Assembly (NCBI GenBank): GCA_024275095.1
Contig: JAJRZV010000120.1
Span: forward strand, 1-7,184
DNA: 7,184 nucleotides
From: a bacterium
GTDB lineage: Bacteria; JAJRZV01
Direction of reading: 5' to 3'
The notes under the pieces are model-generated. The model did no database searches and was not told where the DNA came from. It saw only the letters and a program-made list of their open reading frames with translations. The position numbers and the translations under genes were made by a program. Positions 3,297 to 7,184 of this stretch are shown here, in pieces (the stretch's first letter is position 1; every line of letters starts with the position of its first letter).

Positions 3297-4381
3297 AAAC
3301 CTCCTCTTACCTCTCTAAACACATTCAAAAGATGGTCAACGTGTCTGTCCCAGGTAAACTTCTCACACGTGACCTCTCTACCGCGAAAAGCCATTGCAGC
3401 TGCTTTATCTCTGTCACTCAAAATTTCTTCAATAACCCGTGCAATACTTTCTGCATTTCCAGGAGGCACCATTCTCAGGTGTACCCCATCGCTGTAAAGT
3501 TCACGAATGTTCGGAGAATCCGTGGTTATCACCGCCTTTCCCATTCCCAGATACTCAAAAACCTTGAGCGGGTCAAAGAGGAGCCTGCCTGTCTTTTTCA
3601 TTTCAGGATGGCCTGAAGGGTCATACACGGCGAAGCAGATATCACAGGCTGCAATATACTCCGGGACCCTCTCGTAAGGCACACGGCCGGTGAACACAAA
3701 AGAATCCTCCAGGCCCCGGTGTCTTACTTCCTCTTCCAGTTTTTTCCTGACCTTTCCATCTCCAACCAGCAAAAACTTTACATCGTGACGTTTCAAGATT
3801 TCTGCCACATCGGGCAGTACCTCAAGCCCGTGCCATGGATAAAAACCTCCTGCGTATCCCACGATGTAATGCCCTTCCAGTTTGTATGCCTTCAGGATGT
3901 GATCACCTTTTACTTCGGGATGAAAACGTGCGGGATTGAATCCCCAGAACACACGTTCTGTTTTATATTGGTAACGTGACGGAATCAATTCCGGCCTTGT
4001 GGTCACAATTTTATCAGCCAGCTGCAGAGAGAGTGGGTGCATGTCCTGATCAAGGACCATCGTGACCAGAGGTTTTCTCAACACCGTTTTAAGCATGGCC
4101 CCGAGACCGTAAGCTGAGAACCTCTCATATATAACGTCCGGCCCAAAACGCTTTGCCGCTCTTATTACAAGCGGCAAATAAAAAGCGGGTAACACCCACT
4201 TGACCACAGGGGGAGAGCCGATACCAACAGGAACAACACCCTTACCAGCAGAACCCCTCCGGGCAATAAGCATCACGTCTTCGCACTTTTTCCTTAAATG
4301 CGAAAACACCTCCAGCACGTGAGTACTTCCCCCGTGAGTTCCCGGGACACGAATGTTCGGGGCGAGGAAAAGAACCTTCAC
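3293..4381 (-). CDS. GT4-family (GT-B fold) glycosyltransferase, second copy of the class
   Basis: Predicted cytoplasmic glycosyltransferase of 362 residues. The N-terminus MKVLFLAPN is followed by a glycine-rich acceptor loop, GTHGGSTHVLEVFSHL (14-29). The donor-binding half shows YIVGYAGGFYPWHGLEVL (172-189), FLLVGDG (203-209), VFTGRVPYERVPEYIAACD (229-247) and DPLKVFEYLGMGKAVI (270-285). In the E-x7-E region the second Glu is kept (E276), but the position eight residues before it is Leu 268. This fits the SPLKLFEY-type GT4 subgroup, and the enzyme is probably still active. The start is set at GTG 4381, with AGGAGG four bases upstream and a GTGA overlap with the flippase stop. An in-frame ATG at 4408 adds nine residues but has no ribosome site. 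It shares little with the glycosyltransferase at 1502 beyond family motifs, so the two probably add different linkages. Confidence 0.9.
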   Translation of the reverse strand: MKVLFLAPNIRVPGTHGGSTHVLEVFSHLRKKCEDVMLIARRGSAGKGVVPVGIGSPPVVKWVLPAFYLPLVIRAAKRFGPDVIYERFSAYGLGAMLKTVLRKPLVTMVLDQDMHPLSLQLADKIVTTRPELIPSRYQYKTERVFWGFNPARFHPEVKGDHILKAYKLEGHYIVGYAGGFYPWHGLEVLPDVAEILKRHDVKFLLVGDGKVRKKLEEEVRHRGLEDSFVFTGRVPYERVPEYIAACDICFAVYDPSGHPEMKKTGRLLFDPLKVFEYLGMGKAVITTDSPNIRELYSDGVHLRMVPPGNAESIARVIEEILSDRDKAAAMAFRGREVTCEKFTWDRHVDHLLNVFREVRGGF

Positions 4382-5841
4382 CAGTCCTCCTCGTGTCTCA
4401 AAGTCCATCTGTAAATGAGGAAAAAGTAAATTCCTATAAATGGTACAAGAAAAACGATCAATTCCACTACGTAGTTTAATTCAATCGGTAAAAGAGAGAT
4501 ACTCCATTCAATCACCAGCGCCAGTACAGCCGCCAGCACAAGTGTAACCCACTGAACTTTTATGAACGGCCACACTCGAAAGCGTTTTCGGAGATAATAT
4601 ACCAGGGGAATCTTGGAAAGTGCTGTCCCCGCGGAAGTAGAAAGCGCTGCCCCCATAATTCCCCAGGCAGGAATAAACAAAAAACCACATATACTTCTCA
4701 CCACAAGGTCAAACGTTGCTGCACCGAGGGAATAGGCTGGTTTTCCAACAATCGCTGTAACCTGAAACGCCTGGCCGAGCGAATTACTGATAAAATGAGC
4801 GATCGAAAGCACCACCAGGGCTCCGTAAGCCCCACCGTAGGCGCTGCCAAAAAGAAAGAGCACATTCTTTCCGTAGATTAAAAAAGTCAAAAGCACCGGA
4901 GTACTGAAGAGAAAAATGAGAAACGAAGAATGACGGTAACTCTTGCCAAGTTTTTCGAATTCTCCATTGTAGTGAAGTTCTGAAATTACAGGCGAAAGAA
5001 TGGGATTGAAAGCTGTTCGTATTTTGCCAAACATATAAGCGATCTCCACAGCGAGTGCATAAACACCCACTTCTTTTGCTTTGAGAAAATATCCAGCGAT
5101 AAGAAGATCTATTTTTCTCAGTCCACCCGCCAATACATTCATCCCTCCCAGGTAAAGAGAATAACGAACCACCCTCGTGTCAAAAGAAAGAGCTTCAAAC
5201 AATGCTCCCCACGATACGGGAAATTTCGTTGTGAAAAAGTAGGTGGCGAGAACAAGGCTCACGGCAGATGCCGCAGGATAAGCGATAAAAGGACCAATCT
5301 TATGCGTAAGCGGAATAAAATAAAAAATCACCAGAAAAAGAACCATGTTGATAGGTTCCAGAAAATCCAGAGTGAGCACATGGTATTCCATTCTTTTTAA
5401 CGCCCGGGTATGAGCAAGAAGAATTCTGGAAAGGCTGACCGTAGCCACAAGGGGGAGCATCAGCGGCAATGCTGGCCAGATGTTTCCCGAACGAAAGTAA
5501 TGCTTCTGTATCAGCGGCGCAAGAGCATACATGCCAATGACAAATCCGACCGAAGTGATGAACACAAATCCAACAACAGTCCTGATGGTCGTGTGCAATT
5601 TTTCCCTGTCGCGAATGCGTCCCGGTACATATTTAAAACACGCGTCTTCCATTCCAAAAAGTGCCAGCGATTGCAAGAACTCAACAATCGCCAGCGACAC
5701 AGAAAAAGCAGCAAACACTTCCACGCTGTAAAATTTCGTCATCAGGAAAATAAACGCTGGCCTGAGTATGCGGGATATATTCCCTGAAATGTTAATGAGA
5801 AAACCTTTTAGAAGCACCTGACGTTCGCCACTACCTGACAC
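4378..5841 (-). CDS. Wzx-like polysaccharide/oligosaccharide flippase (MOP superfamily)
   Basis: Integral inner-membrane protein, predicted to flip a lipid-linked oligosaccharide from the cytoplasmic to the periplasmic face. The 487 residues and roughly 12-14 hydrophobic helices match the usual polysaccharide-biosynthesis flippase length. The N-terminal block LKGFLINISGNISRILRP (11-28) leading into the first helix, and the central LRKIDLLIAGYFLKAKEVGVYALA (241-264), are typical: in this family the centre has an Asp after a Lys/Arg, followed by VGxYxxA. The start is set at GTG 5841 because AAAGAGG lies 6 nt upstream. A longer version from TTG 5871 would begin inside the likely -10 box. The gene overlaps the glycosyltransferase by 4 nt, which supports a joint role in making and exporting one glycan. 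No polymerase or ligase is visible in the window. The family is firm; the glycan is not known. Confidence 0.9.
   Translation of the reverse strand: MSGSGERQVLLKGFLINISGNISRILRPAFIFLMTKFYSVEVFAAFSVSLAIVEFLQSLALFGMEDACFKYVPGRIRDREKLHTTIRTVVGFVFITSVGFVIGMYALAPLIQKHYFRSGNIWPALPLMLPLVATVSLSRILLAHTRALKRMEYHVLTLDFLEPINMVLFLVIFYFIPLTHKIGPFIAYPAASAVSLVLATYFFTTKFPVSWGALFEALSFDTRVVRYSLYLGGMNVLAGGLRKIDLLIAGYFLKAKEVGVYALAVEIAYMFGKIRTAFNPILSPVISELHYNGEFEKLGKSYRHSSFLIFLFSTPVLLTFLIYGKNVLFLFGSAYGGAYGALVVLSIAHFISNSLGQAFQVTAIVGKPAYSLGAATFDLVVRSICGFLFIPAWGIMGAALSTSAGTALSKIPLVYYLRKRFRVWPFIKVQWVTLVLAAVLALVIEWSISLLPIELNYVVELIVFLVPFIGIYFFLIYRWTLRHEEDW
4386..4391 (-). promoter_or_regulatory. Shine-Dalgarno AGGAGG for the second glycosyltransferase
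   Basis: On the minus strand AGGAGG ends 4 nt before GTG 4381 and lies within the last codons of the flippase (the Glu-Glu pair near its C-terminus). It decides the GTG start over ATG 4408, and it indicates translational coupling through the GTGA overlap at 4378-4381. Confidence 0.75.
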
Positions 5842-5847
5842 CTGCAA

Positions 5848-5854
5848 CCTCTTT
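5848..5854 (-). promoter_or_regulatory. Shine-Dalgarno AAAGAGG for the flippase
   Basis: Minus-strand AAAGAGG followed by six bases (TTGCAG) and then GTG 5841. It is the best ribosome site near the flippase N-terminus and the reason for trimming ten residues from the longest open frame. Confidence 0.65.
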
Positions 5855-5870
5855 CTGCCGTGTTGACGCA

Positions 5871-5876
5871 ATTATA
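5871..5876 (-). promoter_or_regulatory. Possible -10 box (TATAAT) for the flippase-glycosyltransferase operon
   Basis: A perfect TATAAT on the minus strand, 29 nt before the chosen GTG 5841, would give a short leader containing the AAAGAGG ribosome site. The -35 position is poor (GTTCGT at 5894-5899 with a 17-bp spacer) and there is no extended -10 TG. The promoter is therefore supported only by the -10 box and its position. Confidence 0.5.
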
Positions 5877-5996: not shown

Positions 5997-6077
5997 TGTC
6001 CGAGAGGACAAGGTGGGAGCACCCTTATAAAAAGGATCGATCAAGCGGGGGGATCGGTCCTGTGGCGGGTGCTCCCA
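5997..6077 (+). ncRNA. Candidate structured RNA element, family not recognised
   Basis: Two consecutive stem-loops lie within 81 nt. The first is TGTCC-GAGA-GGACA (5997-6010), a 5-bp stem closed by a GNRA-type tetraloop. The second has an outer 11-bp perfect stem (6014-6024 with 6067-6077, core GGGAGCACCC/GGGTGCTCCC). An asymmetric internal loop follows (6025-6032, UUAUAAAA, opposite 6062-6066, GUGGC). The inner 10-bp stem (6033-6042 with 6052-6061) has one U-G wobble and a G-rich loop (AAGCGGGGG). The block is about 59% GC inside a 24% GC flank. The GNRA loop and the wobble pair work only on the plus strand (the wobble becomes an A-C mismatch on the other), which favours a rightward RNA: either a leader of the LptF/G-like gene, whose start is 175 nt downstream, or a free small RNA. 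I could not match it to any riboswitch, SRP, 6S or ribozyme consensus I know. A DNA-level repeat remains possible. Confidence 0.5.
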
Positions 6078-6196: not shown

Positions 6197-6230
6197 TTTT
6201 TATTCGCACAACTGTATTAAAAATCGCTGG

Positions 6231-6253
6231 AACCCTGGTGAAAACCCGGTGAA
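6231..6253 (+). repeat. Tandem near-repeat with duplicated GGTGAA just before the permease start
   Basis: AACCCTGGTGAA (6231-6242) is followed directly by AACCCGGTGAA (6243-6253), a one-base-shorter copy whose last base is the A of ATG 6253. Each copy holds a GGTGA that resembles a Shine-Dalgarno core, but the first is 11 nt from the ATG and the second touches it, so neither is ideally spaced. The arrangement could tune initiation or could be a small duplication without effect. Confidence 0.4.
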
Positions 6254-7184
6254 TGCACATAATCTCAAAGAAACAAAAAAACAGATATGTTAAACTTCAT
6301 ACCGTGCTGGGAAGATACATCAATGTCCGTCAAACATTAATCTTTTTGGGCCTTTTTCTCCCGGTAAACATCCTCCTTTCCATTGTCCAGGCATCCAAAA
6401 TCTCGGGTGATTTGTATCTTGAAAACATTCCCTGGAGCACCTTTTTCACACTTGCCGGGAATGCATTCTTTATATCCGCTCGCTTCTCATTACCTCTCAC
6501 AGCCTTTCTCGCAGCTTTCATAACAGCAGGCTTGATGGCCGAAAACCGTGAAATCCAGGCCCTGCTTTCCCTCGGTGTATCCAAGAAAAGGTTTATGGCC
6601 TGGTTTCTGTTTTTCCCTGCTGTTGCTTCCGTTACGGGAATAATCAACGATTTCTACATAGCCCCCAAACAATTCACCGCTCTCAAGTACAAGCTGGCAG
6701 ATATGGTTGCCGTTAACATCGAGGACATTTTGAAAAACGCTGGTAATTTCCAGGTAGGGCCTTCTATTCTGCTGGCTTACGAACAAAACTCTAACAATTT
6801 TCTCCTTGCGCTTTCAGAAAAAGGTACATGGGCGGTACTCGCAGGTCGTAAAATCCATGCTCAGTTTCGCAAAGACGAATTTAGCGTCCAAATGGAAAAC
6901 GTAAATGGTTACTTTGTATCCCGAAAAAGTCCCAACGAGATTTTTCGCATTAAATCTGACTCATATTCAGTAAAAATTAACGCCAAAAGAGCTTTTCCTC
7001 GAGTATTTGAACTTTATCTGAACGAAATTACTTTAAAAGGATTACTCAAAAAACACCGAACCAAAACACCGCCTTATATTCCGACTGAATTCTGGAAAAG
7101 GTGTGCGATGTCCATCATGCCCTTTCTTTTCGCTTTGCCGGCTCTGTGGTGCGCCGTCTTTTTTGGGGAAAGCTGGAAGGAAAA
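6253..7184 (+). CDS. LptF/LptG (YjgP/YjgQ) family permease, 3'-truncated by window edge
   Basis: Predicted inner-membrane permease of the lipopolysaccharide-export ABC transporter type, which with LptB extracts LPS from the inner membrane. 310 residues are visible with no stop; the family is usually about 350-400, so the last helices are missing. Order: basic N-terminus, VLGRYINVRQT (18-28), first helix (about 28-47), and a hydrophobic pair ending in the family block RFSLPLTAFLAAFITAGLMA then ENREIQALLSLGVSKKRF (77-114). A third helix leads to INDFYIAPK (131-139). A periplasmic, probably beta-jellyroll, domain spans about 140-245. LYLNEITLKGLLKKH (254-268) then leads into a helix at about 285-303. 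ATG 6253 directly follows an in-frame TGA and is the first possible ATG; the ribosome site is atypical. I cannot tell LptF from LptG, and a paralogue exporting another glycolipid is possible. The gene reads away from the flippase operon. Confidence 0.87.
   Translation, partial: MHIISKKQKNRYVKLHTVLGRYINVRQTLIFLGLFLPVNILLSIVQASKISGDLYLENIPWSTFFTLAGNAFFISARFSLPLTAFLAAFITAGLMAENREIQALLSLGVSKKRFMAWFLFFPAVASVTGIINDFYIAPKQFTALKYKLADMVAVNIEDILKNAGNFQVGPSILLAYEQNSNNFLLALSEKGTWAVLAGRKIHAQFRKDEFSVQMENVNGYFVSRKSPNEIFRIKSDSYSVKINAKRAFPRVFELYLNEITLKGLLKKHRTKTPPYIPTEFWKRCAMSIMPFLFALPALWCAVFFGESWKE

Follow-up and report, generated by a model that had tools for sequence, protein, structure and literature searches.

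A stably folding GC-rich element between divergent envelope genes of an uncultured bacterium, a candidate lineage-restricted structured RNA

The spacer between two divergent envelope genes of an uncultured bacterium without close sequenced relatives contains an 81-nt element (positions 5997-6077) whose fold is genuine and unusually stable. The window, by which we mean the whole stretch of 7,184 nucleotides that was analyzed, holds a polysaccharide flippase-like gene (Polysacc_synt, 4378..5871, minus strand) and an LptF/LptG-family permease gene (6253..7184, plus strand), which runs off the end of the contig; the spacer between them is 381 nt long. The reading that we put first, with a confidence that stays somewhat short of even, is that the element is a structured RNA restricted to its lineage, with the plus strand slightly favored as the one transcribed; it would be either a free small RNA or part of the leader of the lptF-like gene.

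Fold of the element and its stability

The element consists of a GAGA-capped 5-bp hairpin and, after three unpaired bases, a long two-part hairpin. The small hairpin, P1 (5997-6001/6006-6010, plus strand), reads TGTCC-GAGA-GGACA, with GAGA as the tetraloop. In the long hairpin, P2 is made of 11 perfect pairs between 6014-6024 (TGGGAGCACCC) and 6067-6077 (GGGTGCTCCCA); its 5′ arm, besides being the perfect complement of the 3′ arm, is itself near-palindromic (GGGAGCACCC). An asymmetric internal loop, with TTATAAAA on the 5′ side (6025-6032) and GTGGC on the 3′ side (6062-6066), separates P2 from P3 (6033-6042/6052-6061), whose 10 pairs include one U-G (6037-6057) and whose 9-nt loop (6043-6051) is AAGCGGGGG. 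Altogether the element has 26 pairs (16 GC, 9 AU, and 1 GU). Folding confirms the architecture given in the initial annotation, a GNRA hairpin beside a two-part hairpin of 11 bp, an internal loop, and 10 bp with one U-G. The computed plus-strand minimum goes beyond that drawing in partly closing the internal loop, where UUAU pairs with GUGG, mostly through wobbles and with pair probabilities of about 0.6-0.8, leaving an AAAA bulge at 6029-6032.

The plus strand folds with an MFE of −44.8 kcal/mol (z −6.2) and the minus strand with −38.0 kcal/mol (z −6.9); for each, 0 of 200 shuffles (dinucleotide shuffles for the plus strand) were as stable. Markov sequences with the element's own composition reached −44.8 in 21 of 20,000 cases, and Markov replicas of the whole spacer in 0 of 2,000, the best of them at −36.5. 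By itself, a perfect inverted repeat of 10 bp is not as rare, occurring in 98 of 4,000 shuffled spacers. The shuffles and the spacer replicas bear out the earlier proposal that so much pairing is unlikely by chance.

The element also stands out against its own genome. The background sample covered 1.05 Mb, or about 43%, of an assembly that totals 2.45 Mb in 136 contigs. Ranked by refined energy, the element comes about fifth among the 6,526 intergenic folds of 85 nt in this sample; tRNAs and terminator-like hairpins are among the other strong folds, and 6S RNA and tmRNA rank lower. Its GC content is 59%, against 33% in the spacer without it, in line with the GC-rich block in AT-rich surroundings that had been described before. 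By local GC excess, its spacer ranks ninth among the 92 spacers that are at least 200 bp long. Five of the eight higher-ranked spacers contain genes for tRNA or tmRNA, so this sign is informative, yet it is not specific for RNA genes.

Other structured sites were seen in this genome. Close to the end of a contig, an intergenic stretch (locus L022, 2821-2905, in G000:C10; MFE −47.0) is also strongly structured; it matches nothing in Rfam at E ≤ 1, and its only second match in the genome is short and partial. Two similar GC-rich intergenic hairpins of the form GGCGCGC...GCGCGCC, at about 16114 in L046 and about 3248 in L051, possibly belong to a small repeat family, and an intergenic stretch in L036 (7902-7986) resembles the 3′ end of a tRNA opposite a partial, inverted repeat of its own sequence. 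Three loci (L043, L045, and L059, on contigs C31, C33, and C47) are all N, which inflates the raw genome count of the 11-bp arms (403,538); that count was set aside, and for the arm pattern the intergenic list, with 8 entries, can be used.

Identity and distribution

None of the covariance models of Rfam 15 (4227 families) matches at the gathering threshold, and even at E ≤ 10 nothing falls inside the element, the only match lying outside it at 6262-6295. This supports the statement in the initial annotation that the element fits no known family. ARAGORN finds no tRNA or tmRNA in the window. The element resembles 6S RNA (RF00013) in having a long hairpin broken by an internal loop, but it differs in length (81 nt versus about 187) and in having no Rfam match; we rejected this identity, the genome's RF00013 match being at positions 267-448 of contig C60. 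Many copies elsewhere in the genome had been named beforehand as an observation that would point to a repeat. Blastn, a pattern search allowing 3 mismatches, and a covariance model each found a single copy. This speaks against a repeat or a miniature mobile element, and a dispersed repeat, REP, or MITE was rejected accordingly.

We found no homologue of the element in 289 other genomes, viral contigs, phages, or plasmids, and the genomes compared include no other member of the host's phylum. The covariance model (R1) was built from one sequence entered twice and thus mainly detects close relatives of the element. Structure-pattern scans of the viral contigs gave four chance matches to one pattern, none of them with the structure; the best covariance score among these was 12.7 bits (E 0.59). 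A search of the viral contigs for the flippase gave no match. LptF searches returned only remote LptF/G matches across 59 genomes and no match in further genome contigs. In those further contigs, a ProRS fragment had two matches at 47-50% identity, neither from a close relative, and the genomes of these two matches contain no convincing LptF match.

The LptF-like gene itself is cut by the end of the contig, and positions 7044-7184 of the window are also the first 141 bases of another contig, C112. There (locus L012, 1-420) the lptF frame soon stops, and the membrane part expected at the C terminus is carried on in a different frame; the break at this joint is probably a frameshift or an assembly fault.

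GC-rich intergenic regions have been used as a source of candidate structured noncoding RNAs, in the DIMPL pipeline (PMC8723152) and in genome-wide discovery studies (e.g., PMC6429828). The element is like those candidates in being a locally GC-rich, structured part of a long intergenic region, and unlike them, since they rest on comparative sequence analysis, in being known from one sequence.

Strand and transcription signals

Promoters were scored with a matrix trained on the host genome. The plus strand scores 7.3 at best and offers lptF no convincing site on either side of the element; when the better strand of each is taken, random spacers of equal composition average 9.4. The strongest promoter-like site of the spacer is on the minus strand (TTTTCA-17-TTTAAT, 6244-6216), and its score of 11.1 is not significant, being matched by 168 of 1,000 random spacers. 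No promoter beats chance on either strand, so both an lptF leader and a small RNA are without promoter support. The true start of the flippase gene is likely a GTG near 5841, after AGAGG, and its −10 box is likely the TATAAT at about 5877-5871, which scores only 6.8 with the matrix. The position of this putative −10 box between the element and the gene makes a minus-strand leader role less likely.

The terminator scan of the plus strand found no GC-rich stem with a U tract after the element. On the minus strand, it gave one weak match at P1 (TGTCCTCTCGGACA-TCTTTT, 6010-5997), where 0.5 is expected by chance; here the loop becomes UCUC and is followed by UCUUUU, a weak terminator-like pattern. 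With no U tract on the plus strand and only this weak 5-bp match on the minus strand, we rejected an intrinsic terminator. The element shares with such terminators a GC-rich hairpin in a spacer, and terminator-like hairpins account for several of the strongest elsewhere in the genome; it differs in lying between divergent genes and in that its large hairpin has no U tract on the plus strand.

The element ends 175 nt upstream of the lptF start codon. Its G-rich loop (AAGCGGGGG) pairs with the start region of lptF only at chance level, 346 of 1,000 random regions doing equally well. In a literature search on lptF and riboswitches, no title or abstract was relevant. Beyond the fold itself, nothing speaks in favor of a riboswitch, given the distance to the start codon, the lack of a terminator, and the chance-level loop pairing. 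A switch mechanism working by a terminator or a masked ribosome site is likewise not supported.

The initial annotation had taken the U-G pair and the GAGA loop as favoring a plus-strand RNA. On that strand, all 26 positions do pair, with possible wobble pairs in the internal loop besides. The argument for the strand is nevertheless weak: relative to shuffles both strands fold about equally well, so that the z-scores give the plus strand no preference, and the minus strand retains all of the helices but for a single A-C mismatch.

Weighing the explanations

The fold far beyond shuffles, the single copy, the rank of the spacer as a GC island, and the place of the element near fifth among the most stable folds count for a structured RNA; the lack of a plus-strand promoter or terminator, the chance-level loop pairing, and the z-scores without plus-strand preference count against one from the plus strand. 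The main rival, which we consider less probable than an RNA and on the unlikely side, is a DNA-level element, whose inverted repeats would be operator or architectural protein sites or cruciform DNA common to both divergent envelope genes, with an incidental RNA fold. Such a site would suit the position upstream of two divergent genes and the equal folding of both strands relative to shuffles, and the element folds well as DNA too (−22.5, z −5.5). Its pieces are near-palindromic (GGGAGCACCC, GATCGATC, GGATCGGTCC, and GGGTGCTCCC) and about 16-19 bp apart, but they have no common consensus, and the arms fit inverted repeats better than direct repeats. A regulon-like spread is also absent, since the intergenic DNA of the 1.05 Mb holds no second GGGWGCWCCC pair and only one other lone match.

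Two further explanations seem to us improbable, to a similar degree. A minus-strand leader or small RNA would start near 6213, contain the big hairpin, and end at the U-rich tail of the small one. It would draw on the promoter-like site at 6244-6216, the terminator-like hairpin, and a z of −6.9; the promoter score is nevertheless within the range of random spacers, the terminator stem is only 5 bp long, has 3 GC pairs, and is followed by an interrupted U tract, and the A-C mismatch falls in the upper stem. The other explanation is a mobile-element remnant or some other neutral, young, functionless inverted repeat, with which a GC-rich island in AT-rich DNA and the lack of homologues in anything searched are consistent. 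The single genomic copy disfavors a remnant; moreover, the sequence reads as having no target-site duplication beside the arms, and the window has no transposase gene.

For the structured RNA that we prefer, the simplest form is a free RNA or a stabilizing leader domain. The element would be transcribed, either as a small RNA whose 5′ end lies shortly before 5997 or within the lptF-like gene's long 5′ leader, and its two rigid hairpins may form a folded domain that stabilizes the RNA. Alternatively, a protein or a second RNA may contact this domain through its A-rich bulge (AAAA, 6029-6032) and its G-rich loop.

The broadest claim is that the element, as a small RNA or an lptF leader, represents a new structured-RNA class that is restricted to one deeply branching bacterial lineage and links RNA control to the export of outer-membrane lipid or polysaccharide; we regard it as unlikely, though well short of dismissing it. 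At present the element is an orphan, one candidate of a kind that is common. Should it prove to be a transcribed regulatory RNA, an RNA element would lie beside an LptF/LptG-family transporter gene in a lineage almost without sampled relatives.
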